Below, in pieces: positions 9,353-33,441 of a stretch of 34,123 bases of DNA (position 1 is its first letter; each line of letters starts with the position of its first letter). The notes beneath the pieces were generated by a model. It saw nothing but the letters and a program-made list of their open reading frames with translations. It ran no database searches and was not told the origin of the DNA. The translations under genes were made by a program, and so were the position numbers. This DNA comes from Thermodesulfobacteriota bacterium (GTDB lineage: Bacteria; Desulfobacterota_D; UBA1144), in contig JAURPH010000003.1 in the NCBI GenBank assembly GCA_030835345.1, positions 1-34,123 of the forward strand, read 5' to 3'.

Positions 9353-9502
9353 TTAGTTAATAATACCAAATAAAATTCTAATTAGCCTAGGAATAAACGG
9401 GCCTAACATTGAAATTGTCACCAACAATGTGATAAAACCAAATACACCTAGAGCGAAACCAATAGTTCCTGCTCTTCCTAAATTATTGCTTTTTTTATCC
9501 AT
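9353..9502 (-). CDS. Small single-span membrane protein next to actF, 49 aa
   Basis: A short frame read by hand: ATG at 9500-9502, TAA at 9353-9355. The protein starts MDKKSNNLGRAGTIGFALGV and ends with IPRLIRILFGIIN. It has a basic N-terminus, a hydrophobic helix at about residues 13-34 and an amphipathic basic tail. Its ATG overlaps the stop of actF by one base (TAATG), so translation is very probably coupled. GGAGGAGAC lies just upstream within the end of actF. It fills the gap between actF and purM almost exactly. The position suggests a small accessory subunit of alternative complex III; some ACIII gene clusters carry such small extra proteins, but I cannot prove homology. It could also be an independent membrane peptide. 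Confidence 0.7.
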   Translation of the reverse strand: MDKKSNNLGRAGTIGFALGVFGFITLLVTISMLGPFIPRLIRILFGIIN

Positions 9503-10731
9503 TAGTGACCGTCTCCTCCTTCAATTTTTTTAATTAAATATTTATCTTTAGTTGTAAATACTGGGAAATAACTAAGAAACTTTGTTACACACAATAGGAA
9601 CATACATAAAAATCCAAATGTAATAAGAACTACTTCAAAACCTATATGGAAATGATTATGCATTATTGACGGATATATAAGCCAAATTTTTTCTAAAAAT
9701 AATCCAAGAAAAGAAATTGTTGCAATAGTTGCAAGAATTGGTTTAGCCAATTTAGTAGTTCTAGGAATTAATGAAACGAATGGGATAACAAACGTACAAG
9801 TTAAAAAAGCCCAAATAAATGTGCTGTATGGCTGTTCAAAGACTCTTGAGCCAACATAGCCCGTTTCCTCAGGCATGTTCGCATACCATATTGGAAGGAA
9901 TTGTGCATAAAGGGTATATAGCCAAAAAACAGATAAGCCAAACATTAATTTCCCACAATCATAAAATTGAATCTCTGTTATTATCTTATGTAACTTAAAT
10001 TTATTTGTAAGCATTTGGGAAATTATAACAGTTAGCATCAATGCAGCTAAAACTGATGCCATAAAATAATAGACCCCAAATAGTGTGCTGTAGAAATGAG
10101 AATCTAATGACATCATGAAATCAAATGCTAGAAAACTCATTGATAAAGCATAGATAAATGCAATTGCTATTGAAAGTTTATAGAGTTTCGAGTCAAAATT
10201 ATTTTCACCTTCATTTAATGGTTTTGATAAGAAAGAAAAGAAACCTTTATAACAGCTTGTACCAGCAACATCTTGTCTGATTGAATTGTATAAATAGTAA
10301 TATATCAATGCATGAAGAATTCCAACGAACAAGAAAGTTCTACCAAAAACAAAAATTTCATTAAGCCAAAGTGATTTTTGAACATAAACAGGTTTTGTTG
10401 TCATGTAAGGAAGAGTATATTCACCAGCAAAATACATAAGAATAATAAATATAAATACTATGGGAATAAAGGATCCAAAGGATTCAAAAATCCTCATTAG
10501 GGGTCTTCCCCAACTTGATTCTGTAATTCTCATTGCTGCAGCAAATAGCACTCCGCCATGGCTTACACCAGCCCAAAAAATAAAATTTAAGTGAAAAGCT
10601 GTCCAGGCTAAATCAGCATGAGAACCAAGTGCATAATAAATAAAAGATGCTATACCAACTAATGCACCAACAATTAAAAAAATTGTAAAAGTTGAAGAAA
10701 AAACTATCTTTTTATTGAGGTCTTCTATCAT
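9502..10731 (-). CDS. actF: Alternative complex III subunit ActF (NrfD-like membrane protein)
   Basis: The 409-residue product is a polytopic membrane protein with about ten hydrophobic segments, homologous in type to NrfD/PsrC subunits. Landmarks are the first helix (FSSTFTIFLIVGALVGIASF), LNFIFWAGVSHGGVLFAAAMRIT, WGRPLMRIFESFGSF, KSLWLNEIFVFGRTFLFVGI and the C-terminal HNHFHIGFEVVLITFGFLCMF. In alternative complex III (quinol:cytochrome c/electron acceptor oxidoreductase), ActC and ActF are the two NrfD-like subunits that face each other in the membrane; which binds quinol cannot be decided here. It follows actE by 14 bases and overlaps the start of the 49-residue gene, so it is translated within the act polycistron. 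The C-terminus (KKIEGGDGH) is short and charged. Confidence 0.92.
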   Translation of the reverse strand: MIEDLNKKIVFSSTFTIFLIVGALVGIASFIYYALGSHADLAWTAFHLNFIFWAGVSHGGVLFAAAMRITESSWGRPLMRIFESFGSFIPIVFIFIILMYFAGEYTLPYMTTKPVYVQKSLWLNEIFVFGRTFLFVGILHALIYYYLYNSIRQDVAGTSCYKGFFSFLSKPLNEGENNFDSKLYKLSIAIAFIYALSMSFLAFDFMMSLDSHFYSTLFGVYYFMASVLAALMLTVIISQMLTNKFKLHKIITEIQFYDCGKLMFGLSVFWLYTLYAQFLPIWYANMPEETGYVGSRVFEQPYSTFIWAFLTCTFVIPFVSLIPRTTKLAKPILATIATISFLGLFLEKIWLIYPSIMHNHFHIGFEVVLITFGFLCMFLLCVTKFLSYFPVFTTKDKYLIKKIEGGDGH

Positions 10732-10745
10732 CCTAAAATTTCTCC

Positions 10746-11246
10746 CTATTTAACTTTTCCTTGTAAATATCTAACATAATAAACTATGTCCCAAGCCTCT
10801 TTCTCATTAATCCTTCCATATGCAGGCATCATGACTTTACCCCCATATCTAATGTAAGCATATATATATCCATCTGTTCGCTTTTGGGTTTGTGCTTGTT
10901 TTAAATTTACAGGATAGAAATAAGCATTTTTTCTTTTATCATTTTTAATAACAGGTCCATATCCATCACCGTCCATACCATGGCAAGCATAGCAGTAAGT
11001 TTGATATAACTCCTTACCTCTAGCAATGGATGCCTTACCATCATTAGGGCCAGTTTGAATTTCTTCATATTCCTCTCTAGTTAATTCTCTATTTTTCTGT
11101 CCTTGTCTTACATTATTTTCTGGGTAATCTCGAGCTTCTTCATAAGGTTTAATACTAGGGTGCTCCCACATATCTGTCGACCAAGGTAATGCGTGAGCAT
11201 TTAATGATAGAGATAAAAGTAAAAATAAAATAATTTTATTCTTCAT
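10746..11246 (-). CDS. actE: Alternative complex III monohaem cytochrome c subunit ActE
   Basis: A periplasmic c-type cytochrome of 166 residues. A signal peptide (residues 1 to about 19, ending NAHA) is followed by an acidic spacer. A single haem site CYACHG is at 85-90 and the probable axial Met lies in the VMMPAYGRI motif further on. It would accept electrons from the Fe-S/haem chain of ACIII and pass them to the terminal acceptor. I place the start at the ATG 11244-11246, four codons inside the longest frame. GGAG lies six bases upstream of it, and the sequence then begins with the short basic region of a signal peptide. The gene start overlaps the end of actD. The signal peptide has no lipobox cysteine, so this ActE would be released or held only by protein contacts. 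Confidence 0.93.
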   Translation of the reverse strand: MKNKIILFLLLSLSLNAHALPWSTDMWEHPSIKPYEEARDYPENNVRQGQKNRELTREEYEEIQTGPNDGKASIARGKELYQTYCYACHGMDGDGYGPVIKNDKRKNAYFYPVNLKQAQTQKRTDGYIYAYIRYGGKVMMPAYGRINEKEAWDIVYYVRYLQGKVK

Positions 11247-11769
11247 TTTTAACTCCATTAATTTGAATCTCTTCAGACCCCATATCTCTTAAGATATTTT
11301 CTACCTGTTCTAACTGGTCCGCTGAACATGAAACTAATATTCCAAATTTATCGTCACTAAATCGTTCATCATATAATTCAGGGGGAGTATCCTTTCTTAG
11401 TCTTGCATTAATCAAAAGACCTAAGAATGTTGAAAGGCCACCTATTAAAATCATACACTCAAAAACAATTATCATATAAGGCGGTAAGGAAACAATAGGT
11501 TTAGCACTTGTAACTATTGGCCAATCCAATGAAGTAAAAATTGTAAAAGCTAAACCAACTAATGCCCCTAAGATAGCACCACAAAATGTAAAGTATTTCA
11601 CCTTGCTAGGCTCTTTACCTGTATCGAGACAGTCTTCAATTTCATGGTTTGGAGCAGGTGAAAAAACTCGTATTTCTTCAAAACCACTAGATCTTAATTT
11701 TTTTACAGAATCTACAAGAAGATCCACATAGGAGTAAATTCCCATTATATGCTGACTGTCTTTATTCAT
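11236..11769 (-). CDS. actD: Alternative complex III subunit ActD (DUF3341 family)
   Basis: The 177-residue protein has the ActD pattern. A cytoplasm-like alpha/beta N-terminal region begins with HIMGIYSYVDLLVDSVKKLR and carries VFSPAPNHEI (about 36-45). Two membrane helices follow at about 61-81 (FCGAILGALVGLAFTIFTSL) and 98-120 (MIIVFECMILIGGLSTFLGL), and a C-terminal region DDKFGILVSCSADQLEQVENI resembles the N-terminal fold. ActD carries no cofactor and is thought to support ActC/ActF in the membrane. Its start overlaps the end of actC by eight bases and its end overlaps actE, consistent with stoichiometric, coupled translation. Confidence 0.9.
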   Translation of the reverse strand: MNKDSQHIMGIYSYVDLLVDSVKKLRSSGFEEIRVFSPAPNHEIEDCLDTGKEPSKVKYFTFCGAILGALVGLAFTIFTSLDWPIVTSAKPIVSLPPYMIIVFECMILIGGLSTFLGLLINARLRKDTPPELYDERFSDDKFGILVSCSADQLEQVENILRDMGSEEIQINGVKNEE

Positions 11770-13117
11770 CAGTTGAACCCTCCTGTTTCTTTTTTGGCAC
11801 TGGAAGTATTTCTTTAATCTCAGCTATAGATAAAGCAGGTAATGTTCTAACAAAAATGAGGAAGAACATAAAGAACCATGCAAAACTTCCTACAGTTATT
11901 CCTAATTCCACCCAAGATGGTTTATAAAGGCCCCAAGAGCCAGGCTCGAATTCTTTTGCAAGTGATATAACAATGATGTTAAACCTTTCAAACCACATAC
12001 CAATGTTAATCAATAAAGAAATAATAAATAAAATCTTTAGATTTTCTCTTATTTTTTTCCACCATAGGAAATGTGGAACAATCCCATTACACACCATCAT
12101 AATCCAATAAAACAATGCATAGTCTCCATTAGCCCTATAAAGAAATTGGTCATATTCATATTTGTTTCCACTATACCAAGCAATAAAAAATTCGGTTAAA
12201 TATGCATAGAAAACAATACTTGATGTCAGAATAATCATTTTAGACATCCCATTAAAGTTTTCCATTGTTATATAATCTTCTAATTTGAAAATACTTCTCA
12301 AGGGGATACAGAGTGTTATAACCATCGCAAGACCAGAAAAAATAGCTCCAGCAACGAAATATGGAGGAAATATAGTTGTATGCCATCCAGGAGTATTTGC
12401 CATAGCAAAATCCCAAGAAACAACACTGTGGACTGATATTACAAGTGGAGTTGCAAAACATGCAAAGTAAAAATATGCTCTAGTATAATGTCCCCATTCC
12501 CAACTGGAACCTTTCCAGCCTAAGGATGCAACTGAATAAAAAGTTTTCTTAACTTTACCAACAACAGTATCTCTAATTGCAGCTATGTCAGGAATCATAC
12601 CAATGAAGAAAAATACCGAACTAATTGTTGCATAAGTGCTGACCGCAAAGACATCCCATAAAAGAGGAGAATCAAAATTCACCCATAAACCCCTTTGGTT
12701 TGGATATGGTAATAACCAATAAAAATTCCATGGTCTACCCAAGTGAATAATTGGAAAAAGGCCTGCAGTAGCAACAGCAAAAACTGTCATAGCTTCAGCT
12801 ATTCTGTATATAGACATTCTGAATCTTGCACGAAATAGAAATAATACTGCAGAAATTAAAGTTCCCGAGTGAGCAATACCGACCCAGAAAACAAAATTAG
12901 TGATATAAACACCCCATAGGACAGGGTGGCTGTAACCGGCTACACCTAAGCCAGTGTAAACCTGATAAATAAAGCAGTAAATACCAAATGCAAGAAACAA
13001 CATGTCAATTGCGAAAATTGTCCACCAACCCCATGAAGGTTTAGTTAGCATGTTCATCACAGTAGTATTTAAATGTGAATATTTCTGTGAAGCTGTCAAA
13101 GAATTAAAATCGCTCAT
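11762..13117 (-). CDS. actC: Alternative complex III subunit ActC (NrfD/PsrC-like)
   Basis: The 451-residue integral membrane protein has about ten predicted helices. Recognisable stretches are WGWWTIFAIDMLFLAFGIYC, YITNFVFWVGIAHSGTLISAVLFLFRARFR, LFPIIHLGRPWNFYWLLPYP, and FAMANTPGWHTTIFPPYFVAGAIFSGLAMV. Histidine and arginine residues in the HSGT and HLGRPW regions occupy places expected near the quinol site in this family. ActC and ActF are the two NrfD-like subunits of ACIII; ActC packs under ActB. It begins two bases after actB (TAG, then ATG), preceded by GGATAG as a weak ribosome binding site. The hydrophilic C-terminus (VPKKKQEGSTDE) overlaps the actD start. Confidence 0.94.
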   Translation of the reverse strand: MSDFNSLTASQKYSHLNTTVMNMLTKPSWGWWTIFAIDMLFLAFGIYCFIYQVYTGLGVAGYSHPVLWGVYITNFVFWVGIAHSGTLISAVLFLFRARFRMSIYRIAEAMTVFAVATAGLFPIIHLGRPWNFYWLLPYPNQRGLWVNFDSPLLWDVFAVSTYATISSVFFFIGMIPDIAAIRDTVVGKVKKTFYSVASLGWKGSSWEWGHYTRAYFYFACFATPLVISVHSVVSWDFAMANTPGWHTTIFPPYFVAGAIFSGLAMVITLCIPLRSIFKLEDYITMENFNGMSKMIILTSSIVFYAYLTEFFIAWYSGNKYEYDQFLYRANGDYALFYWIMMVCNGIVPHFLWWKKIRENLKILFIISLLINIGMWFERFNIIVISLAKEFEPGSWGLYKPSWVELGITVGSFAWFFMFFLIFVRTLPALSIAEIKEILPVPKKKQEGSTDE

Positions 13118-13119
13118 TT

Positions 13120-16065
13120 CTATCCTTTATCCCACTCGATTTTTTTCAAATACGAAATTGATGGTCTAGTATTAAGTTCCTCAAGTAATGCATAAGACCT
13201 CTTGTCTTTTGAAAGTTTAACAACTTCACTCTTTGGATCATTAAGGTCTCCAAATTCGATAGCATCACATGAGCATGCTTGCTGACAAGCAGTCAATACT
13301 TCTCCATCATTTAATTTCCTTTTTTCATCTTTTGCTAAATCTTTTGCCTGTACAATTCTGTGATAACAGAAATTACATTTTTCCATTACACCCTTACTTC
13401 TTACTGTAACATCCGGATTTAATTGAAGATTTAATGGTTCTGGCCACTCATACTTGAACCAATTAAATCTTCTTACTTTATATGAACAGTTGTTTGAACA
13501 ATATCTAGTACCAACACACCTACTGTAGACCATCATATTGATTCCCTCTGGATTATGATAGGTAGCAAAAACAGGACAAACAGGTTCACAAGGTGCATTT
13601 TCACAATGCTGACAAAGCTGAGGAATTATCCTTGTATCAACTCTAACTGTATCTAAAAGTTCATCTTTAATTTCATCTTGGAACCTTTCTAATTTTAACC
13701 ATGACATATGTCGTCCGTTTCCAACTTGCTCTTTTCCTACAACAGGAATATTATTTTCTGCATAACATGCTACAACACAAGCACCACAACCAGTACACTT
13801 ATCTAGGTCAATATTCATTCCCCATTTATGAACAAAATAATCATACTCTCTATACATGTCATATTCTTTGTGCCCGCCATGATGATCATCATGATGATGG
13901 TCATGGTCATCAGTCAGTGCTGATAATGCTATCGTTTGGGCTATATCTCTATTCTCTTGCGAGAAGGAATGTTGAACTTTTACGAATTTTTCAGATTTTC
14001 CAGTTTTAGAAATTGATACTTTAGCTGATGTAAAATCAATTGAGCCGTCATTGCTTGTGACAGGAGATAAGAGATCTAAAGGATTTACACCACGATTAGA
14101 TGCATACCTTCCCATTGCTGTGTGTCCTTGGCCTAAAGAGATTGATACAGTATCAGGTCTAATTGCACTTGTTAAATATGCTTGGGTTTCTATTTTCCCA
14201 AAATCTGATTCAATTTGAATTATATCTCCCTCTTCAATTTCTAATTTATTTGCCAGTTTTGTATTAATCTCAATCCAAGAATCCCAGACAGCTGTAGTTA
14301 ACAAATCAGGTAACTCTTGGAGCCACGAATTGTTAGAACTTCTTCCATCATAAAATCTGTATGAAGGAGTAATATATAAATTTAGTCTCTCTTCAGTAGA
14401 AATTTTTTCAATTTTTATTTTATTATTGGCTATGAATTTTGCTGCAGAATAGTTTGAATTCTTTTTAAACAAACCTCCATCTTTAACAACCTTGTTCCAA
14501 AAAGCTTCAAACGATTCACCACCGCTTAATGCTTTCCAAGAATTTTGTAAATACTCGTAAAAACTTTTCTGATCAATCTTAATATCAGATTTTGAATTAA
14601 TTCTATTAAATAAACCAACTAAAACTTCCTCTGAGGAAAGTCCATCATACAAAGGCTTCATGGCTGGCTGTATGAGCATTAAGTTTCCATTTACTCCTTC
14701 ATAATCTCCCCATTTTTCAAACGGGTGCAAATCTGGGATAACTAAATCACACATTTTAGTGGTTTCATCATCTAAATTTGAAAAACTTACTTTAAAATTA
14801 ATTTTTTCGAAAGCTTCCATAAAACCAAAGGGCTTTGGGACATTGTAGACAGGATTTGCTCCATGAACAATAACTAAATCGACTTCACCATTTTTAGCTT
14901 TTTCTATAAAATCAGTCATTTCTTTGAAATCAGAACAATTAGAGAGAGAGAGGAAATTGTCAAAATCTATTTTATCGGAATTTCCAGTTATCTCATTTAA
15001 TAAATTTATTGCTACTATAGTATCTCTTGAATCTAATCCATCAGATGCAACACCACCACCAATTGCCAATGCAGATTTAGATGAAGCAAAGTCTTTTGCA
15101 ATCTTCGAAATTGAATCTTCAGCTATACCTGTAAGCTCTGATGTCTTTGCTAATGAATAATAGGATAAGTTGTCAAAGATGTTAGGAATTGAATTCCTAT
15201 TTAATTTATTCTGTTTAATATAATTTATTATTCCTAAAACAAGGCTTAAATTTTGATTTGGTGATATTGGTACCCAATCATCAGCCTTAGATCCTGTAAG
15301 AGTTAATTTTGGTTCAACTTGAACGAATTTAGACTTCTTTTTTCCTTTCAAGGAATGCATTTTTGAAAACTTTTTAGAATATTCTGTTGGAGATAACCAA
15401 GTCTCTAAAAAATCTGCACCAAAACTAATTAGATAATCAACATCTTCTATATGATATGTTGGTATTAAAGCTTTACCATAGCTTATTTCATTTGCTTTTC
15501 TTATTGACTCATAAGAGAAAGTTTCAAATTTTATTCTTTTAGCAGATATTTTATTTGCAAAACTATCCAAAAGTCTATCATATGAACCTGTAGTATTATT
15601 AGTAATAATATAAGGATTTTTTGGGTTCTCATTAAGCTTATTAACTAAAATATCTGAAGCTGCTACAAATGTTATAGTTGTTAGATTATTTCTATTATTT
15701 TTAGAAAGTGGTTGTTGTATCCTATCTGGATCGTAAAGAGTTTGTAATGTTGCTTGATCTTCAGCTGATGAGGCACCCTGAGAGATTGGATCAAGACTAT
15801 TTCCCTCAATTTTTATTGCTCTGCCCTCTCTAACTTTAACTACAACTGATGAACCAGCAGGCGAATTAGGAATTGCAGTTGAGTAATAATTGGCTAATCC
15901 TGGGATTACATTTTCTGGAGGAACTGCATAGGACACTAATTTATCTAGCGGTTCTGGTGTGCACCCTGAAGATATAACAGCGGCCCCGCTAATAGCAGTC
16001 AATGCTTTCAGAAAATCTCTTCTGTTTAATGTTCCGTTCTTGTTATTCTTATTATCTGATTCCAT
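13120..16065 (-). CDS. actB: Alternative complex III iron-sulfur subunit ActB
   Basis: A 981-residue fusion of a molybdopterin-oxidoreductase-like domain (about 60-690, without an N-terminal Fe-S motif) with a four-cluster ferredoxin domain (about 740-981), the ActB architecture. The N-terminus has a twin-arginine motif (NRRDFLKAL, residues 14-22) and a lipobox-like ISSGC with Cys35. It is therefore probably exported folded and lipid-anchored at the periplasmic face. Cluster cysteines are seen in CTGCGACVVACYAEN (from about 757), CQHCENAPCEPVCP, CVGTRYCSNNC and CNFCYHRI...CQQACSCDAIEFG; family knowledge gives three [4Fe-4S] and one [3Fe-4S] cluster. An unusual His/Asp-rich run (HDHHHDDHHGGH) lies at 721-732, in the linker just before the ferredoxin part. 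It starts 14 bases after actA, with AGGTG upstream. Confidence 0.95.
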   Translation of the reverse strand: MESDNKNNKNGTLNRRDFLKALTAISGAAVISSGCTPEPLDKLVSYAVPPENVIPGLANYYSTAIPNSPAGSSVVVKVREGRAIKIEGNSLDPISQGASSAEDQATLQTLYDPDRIQQPLSKNNRNNLTTITFVAASDILVNKLNENPKNPYIITNNTTGSYDRLLDSFANKISAKRIKFETFSYESIRKANEISYGKALIPTYHIEDVDYLISFGADFLETWLSPTEYSKKFSKMHSLKGKKKSKFVQVEPKLTLTGSKADDWVPISPNQNLSLVLGIINYIKQNKLNRNSIPNIFDNLSYYSLAKTSELTGIAEDSISKIAKDFASSKSALAIGGGVASDGLDSRDTIVAINLLNEITGNSDKIDFDNFLSLSNCSDFKEMTDFIEKAKNGEVDLVIVHGANPVYNVPKPFGFMEAFEKINFKVSFSNLDDETTKMCDLVIPDLHPFEKWGDYEGVNGNLMLIQPAMKPLYDGLSSEEVLVGLFNRINSKSDIKIDQKSFYEYLQNSWKALSGGESFEAFWNKVVKDGGLFKKNSNYSAAKFIANNKIKIEKISTEERLNLYITPSYRFYDGRSSNNSWLQELPDLLTTAVWDSWIEINTKLANKLEIEEGDIIQIESDFGKIETQAYLTSAIRPDTVSISLGQGHTAMGRYASNRGVNPLDLLSPVTSNDGSIDFTSAKVSISKTGKSEKFVKVQHSFSQENRDIAQTIALSALTDDHDHHHDDHHGGHKEYDMYREYDYFVHKWGMNIDLDKCTGCGACVVACYAENNIPVVGKEQVGNGRHMSWLKLERFQDEIKDELLDTVRVDTRIIPQLCQHCENAPCEPVCPVFATYHNPEGINMMVYSRCVGTRYCSNNCSYKVRRFNWFKYEWPEPLNLQLNPDVTVRSKGVMEKCNFCYHRIVQAKDLAKDEKRKLNDGEVLTACQQACSCDAIEFGDLNDPKSEVVKLSKDKRSYALLEELNTRPSISYLKKIEWDKG

Positions 16066-16079
16066 TTAAAAAACACCTG

Positions 16080-16868
16080 CTAATAATGACATGTAGAACA
16101 GTCTTTTAGCCAAGCAACCTCCTCTTCAATATTAATTAGCTTAGGAGCATAATCTTTATTACTGTGCTTATCTCCTAATTGATGATCATAATCTTTATAT
16201 AATTTATCTGATCGAATTCTACCCGTATGTGACATTATTCTCTTATCTGTTTCCGAGAGTTCGCTCATACCTTTATGTTTTGCCTCAATAGCTTTAAAGT
16301 TTGCATCGAGTTTTTCCTCATGACAACTGATACACCAACCCATCTGAATTTTGACAATTGGCTTTGGTATATCAACTTCATCAACATTTCCATGACAAGT
16401 TGTACATTCTAACCCATATCTTATGTGAGGTTTGTGCGGAAATTTTGCATGTTCAGCAACATAGTGATAATTTACCCATACAATAGGCTCTTTTCTTTCC
16501 CAATAGCCTGTAAGTTTTTTAATTTCTTCCTCAAAGACTATGCGTTTTCTGTTGTCATATAAATAATTATTGGGATCAATTACCTCACCTTTATATTCTT
16601 TAAGTCGTTTGGGATCATTTGAATCATATTCCGCCTTAACATAAGTATGACATCCCATACATTCCATAACTGACGGTATTCCAGGTTGAGATGATTTAGC
16701 TACATATGAATGGCAATAAGTACAAGGAATGTTATTTACACCTGAGTGAATTTTATGGCTAAAAGCTATTGGTTGATGAGGTTCATACTCTTTTATAAAA
16801 CCAAAGTATGTAATAGCCACAGTGGCTACAAAGGCGATTATAGTTAGAAAGATTAGCTTCTTCGACAA
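16080..16868 (-). CDS. actA: Alternative complex III pentahaem cytochrome c subunit ActA
   Basis: Five CXXCH haem c sites are seen at residues 49-53, 70-74, 155-159, 179-183 and 257-261 (the last two residues before the stop are HisTyr). The remaining His residues, such as FSHKIHSG, HYVAEHAKFPHKPH and IMSHTGR, are suitable second axial ligands. One N-terminal membrane anchor (about 4-24) places the hemes in the periplasm. The length (262) is in the family range. The start is TTG at 16866-16868: there is no upstream or nearby in-frame ATG, and AAGGA lies eight bases before it. It is the first gene of actABCDEF and has its own promoter immediately after bioD. Confidence 0.93.
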   Translation of the reverse strand: MSKKLIFLTIIAFVATVAITYFGFIKEYEPHQPIAFSHKIHSGVNNIPCTYCHSYVAKSSQPGIPSVMECMGCHTYVKAEYDSNDPKRLKEYKGEVIDPNNYLYDNRKRIVFEEEIKKLTGYWERKEPIVWVNYHYVAEHAKFPHKPHIRYGLECTTCHGNVDEVDIPKPIVKIQMGWCISCHEEKLDANFKAIEAKHKGMSELSETDKRIMSHTGRIRSDKLYKDYDHQLGDKHSNKDYAPKLINIEEEVAWLKDCSTCHY

Positions 16869-27221: not shown

Positions 27222-28217
27222 ATGAAGTACTTGTTAGGAATTGAATCTTCATGTGATGAAACTGCAGCGGCAATACTAGCTCCAAGTGGGAAAATTTTGT
27301 CGAATATTGTTTTTAGTCAATCCTCAATTCACAATAAAACAGGCGGTGTAGTTCCCGAAATAGCATCAAAAAATCATTCAGAGAAAATACATTTAATAAT
27401 CAATGAAGCATTAATAAAGGCTAATGTTAAGTTGAACGAAATAGCTCAGATATTTGTTTCAAATGGACCAGGACTGACAAATTGTCTAATGATTGGAGTT
27501 ATCGCCGCAAAGGCATTAGGTTTGTTAGTCAAAGTGCCAGTTCACCCTGTAAATCATATTGAAGGCCATATAGCTTCATGTTTTATAGAAAATAAAGTTA
27601 TATTTCCCTCATTATGCCTTGTTGCATCCGGAGGCCATTCAAGCATTTATTATCTAGAGGATGAAGTTAATTTTTCAGTTATTGGATCAACAATTGATGA
27701 TGCGGCAGGAGAGGCTTTTGATAAAGGAGCTAAGCTTATGGGGCTTGGGTATCCTGGAGGGATTGAAATCGATAAATTGGCAAAAGAAGGGGATGAAAAC
27801 TTTCATAAATTTCCAATTGCAAAATTAGATAAAAACTCATTCAACTTTAGCTTCAGTGGTATTAAAACATCTTTAAGATATTTTTTAGAAAAAAATCCTA
27901 ATTGGAAAAATAATGTTCATTCAATTGCTGCAAGTTACCAAGAATCAATAGTTGATTCACTTTTACAGCAATTAATTAAAGCTAGAAAAAAATTTAAACC
28001 AAAATCAATTTTAATTTCTGGTGGAGTAGCTTGTAATTCGAGGCTCAGAGAAAAAGCTCAGAAAAGTTTCATTGATTCCTCTAACCTTATTATTCCAACT
28101 CCAAAATTATGTACTGATAATGCTGCAATGATAGCTATGAGAGGAATACAGCTTAAAAGAAAAGATAATATAGACTACTCTTTTGGTGTCTATAGTACTT
28201 CAAGGAAAATCAATTAA
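27222..28217 (+). CDS. tsaD: tRNA N6-threonylcarbamoyladenosine transferase subunit TsaD
   Basis: With TsaB, TsaC and TsaE it makes t6A at position 37 of ANN-decoding tRNAs. The 331 residues start LLGIESSCDETAAAIL, the family signature. HPVNHIEGHIAS (about 107-118) has the metal-binding HxxxH, and LVASGGHSSIYYL and DDAAGEAFDKGAKLMGLGYPGG are nucleotide-binding motifs. ISGGVACNSRLREK and TDNAAMIA complete the ASKHA fold. No partner gene is adjacent. The start ATG lacks a clear Shine-Dalgarno sequence. The last eight bases overlap convergent gltB. Confidence 0.97.
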   Translation: MKYLLGIESSCDETAAAILAPSGKILSNIVFSQSSIHNKTGGVVPEIASKNHSEKIHLIINEALIKANVKLNEIAQIFVSNGPGLTNCLMIGVIAAKALGLLVKVPVHPVNHIEGHIASCFIENKVIFPSLCLVASGGHSSIYYLEDEVNFSVIGSTIDDAAGEAFDKGAKLMGLGYPGGIEIDKLAKEGDENFHKFPIAKLDKNSFNFSFSGIKTSLRYFLEKNPNWKNNVHSIAASYQESIVDSLLQQLIKARKKFKPKSILISGGVACNSRLREKAQKSFIDSSNLIIPTPKLCTDNAAMIAMRGIQLKRKDNIDYSFGVYSTSRKIN

Positions 28218-31200
28218 TATCAGGTTTTATAAAATTAAAATCATCTATTGAAATACCTTTAGATTCTAATATTTTATAAATTTCTTTTGGTATGATTCTT
28301 ACAAAACTAGAAACTTTATTATCAAAATCTTCTAAAATTGACTTTGCTTTCTTGCTTCCAGTTTTAGCAAGATGTTCATTTATGATATTTTTAATTTTTA
28401 TTTTATCATTTTCACTTAGTTCATCAATAAAAACCATATCTTGATTTACATTCAAATTAATATCCTTGTTTTCATTAAAGATATAAGCTATGCCACCTGA
28501 CATTCCCGCTCCAAAATTCTTACCTATAGGGCCTAATATATAAACCTCTCCACCAGTCATGTATTCGCAAGCATGATCTCCGGTTCCTTCAACAACAGCG
28601 GTTGCGCCACTGTTTCTTACACAAAATCTCTCACCTGCTAGACCTGATGCAAAAAGCTTACCGCCTGTAGCTCCGTACAATACAGTGTTGCCAATGATAG
28701 AATTTCCATCTGATAGAAACTTGGTTTCTTTATCTGGATATATTGCTACTTCGCCGCCATGCATTGATTTCCCTACATAATCATTGGCTTCTCCTTCCAG
28801 ATTCAAGTTAATACCATTAATCAAGTATCCACCAAAAGATTGTCCTGAAATACCTCTAAAATTAATATTGATAGTATTATCAGGTAACCCTTTATTTCCA
28901 TATTTTTTAGCTATAGCACCAGAAAGTATTGCACCAACAGTCCTATCAACAGTATTAATTGAAAGTGAGATTTCATTTGGATTTAGCTCATCAATACTTT
29001 TTCTAAAATAATTAATCAATTCAAAGTCTATTGGATCTTCATCTCTATTGTTCCTCTCAAGAATTCTTTTCCTAGGTTTGGTATTAGATGGATCAGGATC
29101 AGCAATGATTCTTGATAGGTCTATGTTCTTAGTTTTATTAAAATTAATTTTTGATTTAATTTTCAAATATTCTGTTCTTCCAATAATTTCATCTAATGAA
29201 GTTACTCCAATCTTTGCTAAAATTTGTCTAACATCATGAGCTACTGAAAATAAGTAATTAACGGCTTCCTCTGGAATACCTGGGAATTTTTTTCTTAGTT
29301 CTGGTTTTTGTGATGCTATGCCAACAGGACATGTATTTAAATGGCATTGCCTTGCCATAACACATCCAAGTGCCACAAGTACAGATGTACCAAATCCATA
29401 TTCTTCTGCCCCCAGCATCGCCGCAACTACAACATCAAAACCTCTTTGAAAACCACCATCGACAGTTAATGTAACTTTTCCACGAAGATCATTCATAACC
29501 AAAACTTGTTGAGTTTCAGAAAGTCCCATTTCCCATGGAATCCCTGCATGTTTAATAGAACCAAGTGGAGAAGCACCAGTACCACCTTCGCAACCACTAA
29601 TCTGAATATAATCCGCATAGCCTTTTGCAACACCAGCTGCAACAGTACCAACTCCAACCTCTGATACTAGCTTAACTCCTACCTTTGCATTAACATTTGC
29701 ATGCTTTAAGTCATATATCAGTTGTGCTAAATCTTCAATACTGTAAATATCATGATGGGGTGGTGGAGATATCAAGCCAACTCCAGGAACTGAATTCCTT
29801 TGGGATGCAATCTCAGTGCTAACCTTTGGACCAGGTATTTGACCACCTTCTCCAGGCTTGGCACCTTGTGCCATCTTTATCTCAATTTGCTTGGCTGAGG
29901 CTAAATATTCAGGTGTGACCCCAAACCTTCCTGAGGCTACTTGCTTAATTGCACTGTTTCTAGAATCGCCATTTTCATCGGGGGTATATCTTTCAGAATT
30001 TTCTCCTCCCTCGCCACTATTACTCTTACCTTGAATTCTATTCATGGCAATTGCAACAGCCTCATGAGTTTCAGTACTTAATGCACCGTGAGACATTGCT
30101 CCAGTCCTAAATCTTTTCATAATTTCTTCTTCTGATTCTACTAAATCAATAGAAACTGATTCGCCTAATTTAAAATCCATTAAATCTCTTATTAATGATG
30201 GTGGTCTAGATTCGTGTAATTCGTTAAATTTTAAATAATCTTCATATGATGCAGTTTTAGAAAGTTTCCTTAAGGATTTGAAAATTAACGGATTTAATGA
30301 ATGGTACTCTCCATCCTTTCTAAATCTATAAATTCCTTCCTCTTTCAGCTTATCTTCAGTCTCATCACTGAAAGCTTTCTTGTGCAAAGCTAAAGTATCG
30401 TTTTCAAAATTTTTAAGAGATACTCCTTGAATCCTAGTAACGGTACCAGGGAAAAATTCTTTGGTTGTTTTCTCATCAATACCAATAATCTCAAAGATTT
30501 GAGAGCCTGTATAGCTAGCTACTGTACTAATTCCAATTTTTGATAAAACCTTAAGAATTCCTCTTTCAAGTGCAAGTTTATAATTTTCCATATAATGATT
30601 TATATCTTCATCAAATTTTCCCATCCATTGAAATGCACTGCTAAATGCTAAATATGGATAAACTGCGGATGCTCCATATCCTAAAAGACAACAAATATGA
30701 TGATCTTCTTTTACCTCTGCTGATTCAACAATTATGGATGTTTTCATTCTTAATCCATTATTTATCAAAGAATGGTGAATTTTACTAACAACTAGTTGAA
30801 TTGGTATCGCAGCTTTATCTTTTGATACTGCTTTATCTGTTAAGAGTAAAATATTAGCTCCATTTTTAACTTTATTTATAGCTTCATCTGAAATAACTTT
30901 TATTGCCTTATCTAAACCAGCTCTTTTAGAGATAAAGAAAGTTGTATCGATTTCAGCAACTTTTAAATCATCAGAAGAAATATTTTTAAAGAAATCCATC
31001 TCATTTTTTGTAAGAACTGGTGAGTCTAAATAATAAAACTTACCTTGATCTTCATCATGATTAAAAAAAGCACTCTTGTCCCCAAAAACAACCCTTAAAG
31101 ACATTACGCTATCTTCTCTATATGGGTCGATTGGTGGATTAGTAACCTGGGCAAATAATTGTTTAAAGTAATTAAATACTGATTTAGGCTTAGCAGATAA

Positions 31201-32739
31201 TGCAGCAATTGGAGTATCATCACCCATTGAACCAATAGGCTCTTTTGCCGTTAAGCTCATAGGCTCAATTAGTCTTTCTAAATCCTCTAACGAATATCCA
31301 AAAACTTTTTGTAAATTAAGCAATTCTTCTGACGAGATCTCTTCAACAAACGAACCTGATTTTTTATTTTTGATAACTTCTGATAATGAATGAAAGTTTT
31401 TCTCACTCCAATTTTGATAATCATAACTGCTAGAGATTTCTTCTTTTATTTCTGTATCACTTAAAAGAATTTTTCTATTTGAATCAATTGCCAACATTTT
31501 TCCAGGAGCAATCCTACCAGATCTTAGAATTTCAGCAGGAGGTACATGAACCATCCCAGCTTCTGAACCTAAAACTAACAAATTATCCTTTGTTACATGA
31601 TATCGAACAGGCCTTAATCCATTTCGGTCTAAAGCTGCGCCAATTATATTTCCATCTGTAAACACTAATGCAGCAGGTCCATCCCAAGGTTCTGCTATAC
31701 AAGAAGAATATTCGTAAAAGGCCTTCAAACCCTTATCAAAAACTTCATCCTTTTCATATGCCTCTGGGACCAACATGCTAACAGCTTTTAATAATCCTCT
31801 TCCTGATATTGAAAGTAATTCCAAAGTGTTGTCTAAATCTGATGAATCACTACCTTCAGGAGATACAAATGGCTTTATTTGGTCTATTTTTGTGCTCCAA
31901 ATATCTGACGAACAAGAATTCTCTCTTGCTTTCATCCAATTAACATTACCCCTGATTGTATTGATTTCTCCATTGTGAGCTAAATACCTAAATGGATGAG
32001 CAAGTTTCCATTCAGGAAAAGTATTAGTGCTATACCTTTGATGGAAAATTACTTTATTAGTTTTATAGTTTGGGTTTCTAAGGTCAAGATAGAATTGATC
32101 TAGTTGATGGGCTTGAAGCATTCCTTTATAGACAATTGTTTTGGATGAAAAAGAGCAACAATAAAAATCATTCATTTTGGCCTTAAGGGATTCTCTCTCT
32201 AAAGTTTTCCTAATTAATAAAAGCTTTCTCTCAAATTCATCTTGATTTAAAAAATCATTATCAGTTACAAAAAACTGAAAGATAGATGGCTTAGCAGATA
32301 ATGCTTTCTCACCAAGAGCTGAATCATCAACTGGCACTTCTCTTGAAGAAATTAAATTTAAATTATGTTCTTTAATTATTTTATTTATTAGCTCTAAACT
32401 TTTCTTATGCAAAATATTTTCTTTTTTTGGCAAAAAGAACATACCTACACCAAAGTTTCCAATAGTAACCTGATTAACATCTTTTTCAGATAAAAATTCA
32501 TCAAAAAGTTCAAGAGGTAATTGAGTAAGAACACCGGCTCCATCACCAGTTTTTTTGTCGCCTCCAACTGCACCTCTATGTGTTAAATTAACAACTGCCT
32601 CAATTGCTTTCTTTAAAACCTTGTTAGTTCTAACACCATCTATAGATGCAACTAGCCCTACACCGCACGCATCATGCTCGAAACTTTTTTCATAAAGTGT
32701 TTTAGTCATAGTACAATTCTCTAAGGGGTTTTTAGTCAA
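28210..32739 (-). CDS. gltB: Glutamate synthase large (alpha) subunit
   Basis: Transfers the amide of glutamine to 2-oxoglutarate to give two glutamates. At 1509 residues it has the full bacterial layout. An N-terminal class II amidotransferase has catalytic Cys25 in HDACGVG, exposed after propeptide removal. The central region is followed by the FMN synthase domain, with GEGGENSERYTPDE and GAKPGEGGQIPGPKV. The [3Fe-4S] cysteines are in CVMARQCHLNTCPVG (about 1120-1140), and the C-terminal beta-helix ends with GEVYILGPIGKNFGAGMSGG. I place the start at TTG 32737-32739 because GAGGTG precedes it by four bases. ATG 32709, with a weak binding site, is the alternative. gltD is not in the window. 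A promoter and two dyads lie upstream. Confidence 0.96.
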   Translation of the reverse strand: MTKNPLENCTMTKTLYEKSFEHDACGVGLVASIDGVRTNKVLKKAIEAVVNLTHRGAVGGDKKTGDGAGVLTQLPLELFDEFLSEKDVNQVTIGNFGVGMFFLPKKENILHKKSLELINKIIKEHNLNLISSREVPVDDSALGEKALSAKPSIFQFFVTDNDFLNQDEFERKLLLIRKTLERESLKAKMNDFYCCSFSSKTIVYKGMLQAHQLDQFYLDLRNPNYKTNKVIFHQRYSTNTFPEWKLAHPFRYLAHNGEINTIRGNVNWMKARENSCSSDIWSTKIDQIKPFVSPEGSDSSDLDNTLELLSISGRGLLKAVSMLVPEAYEKDEVFDKGLKAFYEYSSCIAEPWDGPAALVFTDGNIIGAALDRNGLRPVRYHVTKDNLLVLGSEAGMVHVPPAEILRSGRIAPGKMLAIDSNRKILLSDTEIKEEISSSYDYQNWSEKNFHSLSEVIKNKKSGSFVEEISSEELLNLQKVFGYSLEDLERLIEPMSLTAKEPIGSMGDDTPIAALSAKPKSVFNYFKQLFAQVTNPPIDPYREDSVMSLRVVFGDKSAFFNHDEDQGKFYYLDSPVLTKNEMDFFKNISSDDLKVAEIDTTFFISKRAGLDKAIKVISDEAINKVKNGANILLLTDKAVSKDKAAIPIQLVVSKIHHSLINNGLRMKTSIIVESAEVKEDHHICCLLGYGASAVYPYLAFSSAFQWMGKFDEDINHYMENYKLALERGILKVLSKIGISTVASYTGSQIFEIIGIDEKTTKEFFPGTVTRIQGVSLKNFENDTLALHKKAFSDETEDKLKEEGIYRFRKDGEYHSLNPLIFKSLRKLSKTASYEDYLKFNELHESRPPSLIRDLMDFKLGESVSIDLVESEEEIMKRFRTGAMSHGALSTETHEAVAIAMNRIQGKSNSGEGGENSERYTPDENGDSRNSAIKQVASGRFGVTPEYLASAKQIEIKMAQGAKPGEGGQIPGPKVSTEIASQRNSVPGVGLISPPPHHDIYSIEDLAQLIYDLKHANVNAKVGVKLVSEVGVGTVAAGVAKGYADYIQISGCEGGTGASPLGSIKHAGIPWEMGLSETQQVLVMNDLRGKVTLTVDGGFQRGFDVVVAAMLGAEEYGFGTSVLVALGCVMARQCHLNTCPVGIASQKPELRKKFPGIPEEAVNYLFSVAHDVRQILAKIGVTSLDEIIGRTEYLKIKSKINFNKTKNIDLSRIIADPDPSNTKPRKRILERNNRDEDPIDFELINYFRKSIDELNPNEISLSINTVDRTVGAILSGAIAKKYGNKGLPDNTININFRGISGQSFGGYLINGINLNLEGEANDYVGKSMHGGEVAIYPDKETKFLSDGNSIIGNTVLYGATGGKLFASGLAGERFCVRNSGATAVVEGTGDHACEYMTGGEVYILGPIGKNFGAGMSGGIAYIFNENKDINLNVNQDMVFIDELSENDKIKIKNIINEHLAKTGSKKAKSILEDFDNKVSSFVRIIPKEIYKILESKGISIDDFNFIKPDIN

Positions 32740-32757
32740 TGAACACCTCAATTACTC

Positions 32758-32804
32758 TTTTAACTCATGAGCTATGAGGAGCTTTTTAACCATGCTCTAT
32801 GGTT
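32758..32804 (-). promoter_or_regulatory. Two tandem similar dyads in the gltB leader: operator pair or RNA element
   Basis: Two imperfect direct copies lie 25-26 bases apart. Each copy contains a dyad with a five-base centre: AACCAT/ATGGTT (32788-32804) and CTCAT/ATGAG (32764-32778). On the minus strand each copy reads CATAG-N2-CATG and then TTAAAA. The two stems differ at paired positions, so the symmetry is kept while the sequence changes. The first dyad starts at about the predicted transcription start. The loop of the first (GAGC) is complementary to the loop of the second (GCTC). It may be a pair of regulator sites or a structured 5' leader. Confidence 0.5.
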
Positions 32805-32810
32805 TGTATA

Positions 32811-32838
32811 ATTATATATTTTCAAATATAAGTATCAA
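32811..32838 (-). promoter_or_regulatory. Sigma-70-type promoter of gltB
   Basis: On the minus strand TTGATA (32833-32838), a 16-base spacer and TATAAT (32811-32816): five of six -35 bases and a perfect -10. The predicted start is near 32804, giving a leader of about 65 bases to the TTG start or 95 to the ATG. Confidence 0.65.
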
Positions 32839-32844
32839 GTATAC

Positions 32845-33441
32845 CTATTTTTTAAAAATCATAGCCATCCAAGATCCTGAAACTAAAACATCTAATATCT
32901 TAATATTTTCTATTGATGCCAAATTAGTAAAAGATTCTTTCTTACTCTTATTCAGTCCTGAAATTATAAAAAATCCTCTTTCCTCGAGCTTATTGATGAT
33001 GTAACTAAAATTTTTTTCTAAATACTTTCCAGATATATTTGAAACAATTAAACCATATTTAATTTTTAAATTTGATGGAAAATCTACAAATTTAATATTA
33101 TCTTCCACCAGATTTTTTTTTAAGTTAATTAACGATTCCTTCTTTGCAAAATCATCTATTTCACACGAATGCACAGAATTAAATCCTATCTTTGAAAGTA
33201 AAATTGATAAAATTCCTGATCCCGAACCTAAATCTAAAGAATATGAGTTGAGGTCAATATTCTTAATGTTTCTCATAATTGCTTCTATTGCCAAATTAGT
33301 AGTAGTATGATTTGAGCCAAATGAAGTCCCTTGAGCAATATGAATATCCAAGAAAGATCCATTATTATTTATCGGTATCTTAATATTGAGATCTTCCAAA
33401 CGGTCTTCTATATAAAGTTCCTTTATTTTCATAATTAACAT
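32845..33441 (-). CDS. Short PrmA-like SAM-dependent methyltransferase
   Basis: The 198 residues match only the C-terminal catalytic part of ribosomal protein L11 methyltransferase (PrmA, usually about 290 residues). Visible are QGTSFGSNHTTTNLAIEAI (PrmA: FGTGxHxTTxLxLExL), the SAM motif SLDLGSGSGILSILLSKIGF (about 68-87), the acidic CEIDD end of motif II, VSNISGKYLEK (PrmA: VANI) and GFFIISGLNKSK. The N-terminal substrate-recognition domain is missing: only about 40 residues precede the catalytic core, with no space upstream because divergent thiD starts 18 bases away. It may be a reduced PrmA or a methyltransferase of another protein substrate. The start is ATG 33441 or the ATG at 33432; neither has a ribosome binding site. 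Confidence 0.8.
   Translation of the reverse strand: MLIMKIKELYIEDRLEDLNIKIPINNNGSFLDIHIAQGTSFGSNHTTTNLAIEAIMRNIKNIDLNSYSLDLGSGSGILSILLSKIGFNSVHSCEIDDFAKKESLINLKKNLVEDNIKFVDFPSNLKIKYGLIVSNISGKYLEKNFSYIINKLEERGFFIISGLNKSKKESFTNLASIENIKILDVLVSGSWMAMIFKK

Follow-up and report, generated by a model that had tools for sequence, protein, structure and literature searches.

Two classes of glutamine riboswitches are known. The first, glutamine-I (glnA RNA, RF01739), is a cis-regulatory leader captured by a 53-position model, is often tandem (157 doublets and 4 triplets; PMC9481103), occurs in marine bacteria and in phages, being reported from Melnitz and pelagimyophages (PMC9004378), and has among its targets glutamate synthase, upstream of which glnA RNAs are reported (PMC2864571), and short basic peptides. 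The second, glutamine-II (Downstream-peptide RNA, RF01704), is larger, has a conserved core of its own and is confined to picocyanobacteria (PMC6316151), where multiple copies precede open reading frames (ORFs) of 17-100 aa in marine species (PMC2864571, PMC6316151).

Several other compact RNAs share single features with the arrays described here. In preQ1-I, SAM-II and SAM-V, each aptamer is a single small H-type pseudoknot near the Shine-Dalgarno sequence (SD), and the third loop of preQ1-I is A-rich. Guanidine-II (mini-ykkC) consists of very small units in tandem, the two hairpins of which join through their loops. ToxI and CptI are antitoxin RNAs in which short pseudoknot units are repeated in tandem ahead of a small gene; in such type III antitoxins the repeats are near-identical and the toxin has the ToxN fold.

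The leader of gltB analyzed here lies in a window of 34,123 nucleotides (contig JAURPH010000003.1) from a streamlined Dadabacterium of marine origin (UBA1144 family); among named relatives, this gltB is closest to those of Dadabacteria and unclassified marine MAGs. The array in this leader shares its genomic context, as distinct from class membership, with glutamine-I, to which it is unrelated in sequence and fold. The likeness to preQ1-I, SAM-II and SAM-V is likewise one of common topology and not of membership: the array unit is only 25 nt long, always abuts its neighbor and has a CAU/AUG core and an NNANAA loop, and the respective models are not matched. The units are pseudoknots, unlike those of guanidine-II, and neither near-identical repeats nor a ToxN-fold toxin were found at the arrays. 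No Rfam 15 family matches the window or the Dadabacterial and phage arrays at gathering or permissive thresholds, guanidine-II and glutamine-II included; RF01739 and RF01704 do not reach their gathering thresholds, in line with the original prediction that the leader falls outside the glutamine riboswitch classes. A search for RF01739 in 14 genomes of the UBA1144 family found none, and the control, Synechococcus elongatus, was positive. No prior description of this combination of array and context was found in the open-licence PMC literature. The arrays look like an undescribed family of tandem mini-pseudoknots (two to four units) in marine Dadabacteria and marine phages, and this Rfam-absent family, with its strong covariation, connects short marine-phage genes with an enzyme central to nitrogen metabolism in an uncultured ocean bacterium.

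The gltB Leader and Its Two Pseudoknot Units

The gltB gene encodes the large subunit of glutamate synthase (1499 aa; 28210..32709 on the minus strand, ATG at 32709), and its domains are complete according to Pfam: GATase_2 (1.1e-167), Glu_synthase (1.2e-141), Glu_syn_central (1.5e-103) and GXGXG (5.3e-77). A sigma-70-type promoter is predicted upstream (32811..32838, minus strand) and consists, as originally proposed, of TTGATA (32838-32833), a 16-nt spacer and TATAAT (32816-32811). It matches 11 of the 12 consensus positions, but chance alone would yield about one such site in this AT-rich stretch, so that the call rests on its position and on the similar placement in relatives, several of which have a comparable -10 box about 5-10 nt ahead of the array. 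From this promoter, transcription is expected to start near 32804, and the array thus begins at the predicted +1. A methyltransferase-like ORF on the same strand (32845-33441) ends approximately 40 nt upstream of the array, so read-through into the gltB leader is possible in addition to initiation at the gltB promoter. Elsewhere in the window, a run of minus-strand genes (9502-16868) resembles, to judge from translations read by eye, an alternative complex III cluster, with a multihaem cytochrome, a molybdopterin/iron-sulphur subunit, NrfD-like membrane subunits and cytochrome c.

The array consists of two 25-nt units on the minus strand (32803..32779 and 32778..32754) that abut with zero bases between them. 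Both have the topology of an H-type pseudoknot, with a 5-pair helix S1, a 1-base loop L1, a 4-pair helix S2 in which the loop pairs with the 3′ tail of the same unit, and a loop L3 rich in A. In unit 1 (32779..32803), called from the sequence, the pseudoknot grammar and the covariation of 45 units, S1 pairs ACCAT (32803-32799) with ATGGT (32793-32789), with a possible sixth pair, 32804/32788; L1 is A 32798, S2 joins GAGC (32797-32794) to GCTC (32782-32779), and L3 is TAAAAA (32788-32783). Unit 2 (32754..32778), for which the evidence is the sequence, its retention in seven genomes and covariation, has CTCAT (32778-32774) paired with ATGAG (32768-32764) in S1, A 32773 as L1 and TTAAAA (32763-32758) as L3; its S2, GCTC (32772-32769) with GAGT (32757-32754), has a G-U outermost pair in the window, and the tail is GAGC in genus g4.

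The original prediction had described the two dyads, AACCAT-AGAGC-ATGGTT and CTCAT-AGCTC-ATGAG, each followed by TTAAAA, as direct repeats 25-26 bp apart. Both dyads and the repeats are present, the spacing being exactly 25 nt, and the stems differ with pairing kept (ACCAT/ATGGT versus CTCAT/ATGAG in S1), as they do between neighboring units elsewhere. What had been missed is the pairing of each loop with its own 3′ tail, which turns each unit into a pseudoknot. The complementarity of the two loops, interpreted at the time as a possible kissing interaction, is real in the gltB pair, but kissing itself is unsupported: neighboring loops in the other arrays do not match (GGGC versus AGTC, or GTGC versus AGTC, for example) and instead match their own tails, and these mismatches, together with the covariation of S2, speak against kissing between neighboring units.

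A search pattern that fixes only CAT/CATG/AAG at a 25-nt period occurs in tandem once in the window and in none of 100 shuffles. The reversed-pattern controls gave no match over 58 and 387 genomes, and ARAGORN detected no tmRNA at the arrays. A lone conserved match, CATAGAGCATGGCTAAAAAT, found in three genomes, was rejected because it falls within coding sequence and no tandem partner accompanies it.

Covariation of the Units

Among 45 distinct units, 97.0% of the cells are paired, compared to 74.9% after shuffling, and the covariation score is 0.589 versus 0.147 (reached in 0 of 500 shuffles), counts that are not to be read as probabilities since the units are related by descent. When the helices are slid by 1-3 columns, under 35% of the cells remain paired. 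Because the 45 units had been chosen in part for their pairing, the count was repeated on 40 units picked by the CAT/CATG/AAG pattern alone. At the five pairs that this pattern leaves free, 33, 40, 35, 40 and 40 of the 40 units are paired, against expectations of 20, 24, 29, 22 and 17, respectively; the three positions paired throughout are S1 pair 2, S2 pair 2 and S2 pair 3 (expected 24, 22 and 17), each with three to four Watson-Crick types. The pattern imposes the CAT/ATG core and the C-G pair that closes S2, so that the invariance of these positions is partly an effect of the search, and arrays with other cores are missed. Within a single array, both helices vary from unit to unit and yet remain paired; the gltB leaders alone display almost no covariation, and the support comes from paralogous units.

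These data bear directly on the two alternatives that had been proposed for the dyads, namely a pair of DNA operators at the start site, separated by about 2.5 helical turns, or a small RNA element controlling glutamate synthase. The position of the dyads at the predicted +1 and their 25-bp spacing would suit operators. However, S2 joins the center of each dyad to a tail outside it, a pairing that no DNA dyad predicts, and it covaries across units, with two varying positions paired in 40 of 40; in addition, the arrays of two phages are located between a stop codon and the SD, an unusual place for an operator, and four-unit arrays extend 100 nt into the leader. Operators are accordingly a highly improbable explanation, and it is the RNA element that gains support: the units are almost certainly RNA pseudoknots, as judged from these sequence comparisons.

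Conservation and Spread in the UBA1144 Family

The 60-nt block that comprises the array and the GAGGTG motif downstream of it is 96% identical between the genus of the window and five genomes of another genus, whereas the identity in the same comparison is 55% in the 60 nt upstream, 40% in the rest of the leader and 67% in the first 90 nt of gltB. The compensatory changes in both helices and the conservation above the flanks are together what is generally expected of a cis-acting structured RNA, and the array is very probably a cis-regulatory element. With respect to the conservation of the dyads upstream of gltB in relatives, the check proposed with the original prediction, the array is retained ahead of gltB in 7 of the 14 family genomes, which represent two genera, and does not precede gltB in the other seven.

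Altogether, arrays of two to four units are present in 10 of the 14 genomes, ahead of gltB in seven and of a short basic ORF in nine. In this second Dadabacterial locus, arrays of four units precede an ORF of 46-73 aa. In genus g4 (L261, L262, L264, L266 and L267), the short-ORF array follows a tRNA-Cys gene of the same strand at a short distance, and a -10-like box of the array's own lies between the two. Outside the UBA1144 family, no arrays were found among 387 sampled genomes, and in Pelagibacterales they are present in 0 of 247.

Arrays and Short Basic Peptides in Marine Phages

In IMG/VR, the tandem pattern matched 29 contigs, all 29 of which carry pseudoknot arrays of two to four units. 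Eight more contigs, among them a second group with 24-25-nt units, were matched by a looser pattern, bringing the number of marine phage contigs to 37. Wherever the contig continues, the next gene is a basic ORF of 29-40 aa. One family of these peptides (A), with the motif ALRxYQKxxxxKKR, is related to the Dadabacterial short ORF, and arrays precede 18 of its 20 loci. Another (B), with the motif HHWILARFSQLRKIAR, is preceded by an array at 5 of 5 loci and is carried by phages with T4-like tail genes (L320, L321, L349, L352 and L365), two of which (L352 and L365) have late-promoter-like boxes, TATAAATA, just ahead of the array. Peptide B may resemble the cyanobacterial IF7 (RHH motif), a likeness that plays no part in the argument. 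The peptide and array region of the peptide-B phages has no relative among 50,697 INPHARED records, and the short peptides in general have no tblastn match in the isolated phages of that collection. For one tail gene of L365, the relatives are all distant, the best matches listed being under 40% identical.

The two peptide-A loci that lack an array (L510 and L511) are identical to each other in local sequence and carry the ORF in the corresponding position behind the capsid gene; this phage is a case of natural loss of the array. In L347 and L358, a two-unit array precedes a third, different short ORF (MLLTKKLIRFNSDYMIEIPRQMKGLWDLSENRWGYKKVKK).

Tandem short pseudoknots upstream of a small gene are reminiscent of type III toxin-antitoxin systems, in which the array would be a ToxI-like antitoxin. 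The prospects of this explanation are very slim: the downstream genes are gltB or basic ORFs of 29-73 aa that have no significant Pfam, NCBIfam or PADLOC match and include no ToxN-like toxin, the 25-nt units differ from one another by compensated changes rather than being identical repeats, and no terminator-like site separates the array from the gene in the window.

The targets of the arrays, i.e., peptides A and B, the third peptide and GltB, are dissimilar, and the presence of unrelated products behind the same RNA favors a common signal. Such a signal could be a protein: the tandem pseudoknots might be binding sites for a host translational regulator, or for an autoregulating basic peptide with gltB as a further target. 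Gp32 of phage T4 regulates its own message through a leader pseudoknot, small repetitive pseudoknots would suit cooperative protein binding, the arrays adjoin the SD, and the short ORFs are all strongly basic (median charge +7.5 for 30 ORFs), such that their products could bind RNA. At least three dissimilar peptides and GltB behind one RNA make autoregulation by the product unlikely but are still compatible with a common host protein; the invariant CAT/ATG core, itself partly imposed by the search pattern, and the A-rich L3 are neutral between protein and ligand. Taken together, we regard a protein-binding role as rather unlikely, and consider it likely that the array is a metabolite-sensing riboswitch.

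Proposed Switching Mechanism

The candidate switch strand in gltB is the conserved TTGAGGTG (GTGAGGTG in g4; 32744..32751, minus strand), which every one of the seven gltB leaders retains. The GAGG within it is able to pair with CCTC (32779-32776), where the unit 1 S2 3′ strand meets the unit 2 S1 5′ strand, and this pairing competes with both pseudoknots; across the gltB leaders, a similar pairing with CCTCA at the unit junction is available to the conserved GTGAGG, which reads TTGAGG in the window. With 26-41 nt between it and the gltB start codon, the GAGGTG motif is too distant to be an ordinary SD.

In one group of phages (L168, L270, L271 and L284), the fold computed without pseudoknots contains an equivalent helix, GCCTCTC/GGGAGGT, that sequesters the SD of the short ORF, GCCTCTC being made up of the S2 3′ strand of unit 1 together with the S1 5′ strand of unit 2. 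In two of these phages (L168 and L270), the array directly follows the stop codon of the upstream gene, ahead of the SD. The calculated probability that the SD is unpaired in this group rises from 0.01-0.12 in the free leader to 0.22-0.30 with the pseudoknots held. In the Dadabacterial short-ORF leaders, the array shares no more than its last bases with the SD hairpin, and in most of them the calculated hairpin remains largely closed with the pseudoknots held as well as without. An ON switch is clear only in that one phage group, and the direction of switching is one that we infer: the L168-type fold and the junction pairings of gltB suggest that formed pseudoknots would free the ribosome-binding region.

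Under the mechanism that we propose, each 25-nt unit would most likely be a small aptamer, and the tandem copies could sharpen the response, as in the tandem glutamine and glycine riboswitches. Pseudoknots stabilized by the ligand, most likely glutamine or a close signal of nitrogen sufficiency, would compete with the downstream helix that hides the ribosome-binding region, and the ligand-bound state would thus free this region and turn translation on. For the reading of the gltB leader as a candidate tandem mini-pseudoknot riboswitch that acts on translation, most likely as a glutamine ON switch, we estimate a probability of roughly 0.55.

The Case for Glutamine

Glutamine is the leading candidate for the ligand because glutamate synthase consumes it, and is further favored by the resemblance of the short basic peptides to the known targets of glutamine riboswitches in phages and cyanobacteria; on this contextual evidence, we give it an even chance. 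Glutamine-I riboswitches are common in marine phage contigs, with at least 120 IMG/VR stretches (L377-L496), and RF01739 was confirmed by Rfam in all 9 phage loci checked. Among the matches listed, what follows these riboswitches is nearly always a short basic ORF (31-65 aa) from one of many dissimilar families; the 83 distinct ORFs among these matches are all of net positive charge, with a median of +7, and belong to the same charge class as the ORFs behind the pseudoknots. Some of the glutamine-I ORFs are YRGV-rich and DUF4278-like, and one is weakly matched by DUF4278, the domain at the N-terminus of IF17, a factor that inactivates glutamine synthetase in cyanobacteria (PMC6316151). The phage peptides associated with glutamine-I are possibly a large class that acts on host nitrogen metabolism.

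Peptide B is weakly similar to the peptide behind a tandem glutamine-I riboswitch in L408 (score 52, compared to a maximum of 46 in 200 shuffles), a comparison of short sequences in which the two best of the four related queries have p values of about 0.005 and 0.015. Peptides A have no significant similarity to the peptides behind glutamine riboswitches.

The same array could instead be a riboswitch for another signal, such as 2-oxoglutarate, glutamate, an amino acid or some other metabolite, the link to glutamine then being contextual only. The gltB product also uses 2-oxoglutarate and makes glutamate, and the peptides are without known function; the parallel with the targets of the phage glutamine-I riboswitches points more to glutamine, and we consider a different ligand improbable.

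With glutamine as the ligand, a broader and more tentative proposal can be made, to which we assign somewhat less than even odds: the arrays would constitute a new glutamine riboswitch class of tandem 25-nt aptamers, independent of the two known classes, which controls glutamate synthase in streamlined Dadabacteria and, in unrelated marine phages, the timing of short basic peptides whose target would be host nitrogen assimilation, perhaps through inhibition of glutamine synthetase. If glutamine binding is true, this would be a third RNA solution to glutamine sensing, and the effects of the short basic phage peptides on host nitrogen metabolism could then be tested directly. Its small size puts the unit within reach of chemical synthesis and structure determination.

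One of the phage contigs with a tandem glutamine-I riboswitch also carries, near that riboswitch, a match to the Rfam family RF02980, the cis-regulatory RNA "freshwater-2" (L396:2004-2087, minus strand).
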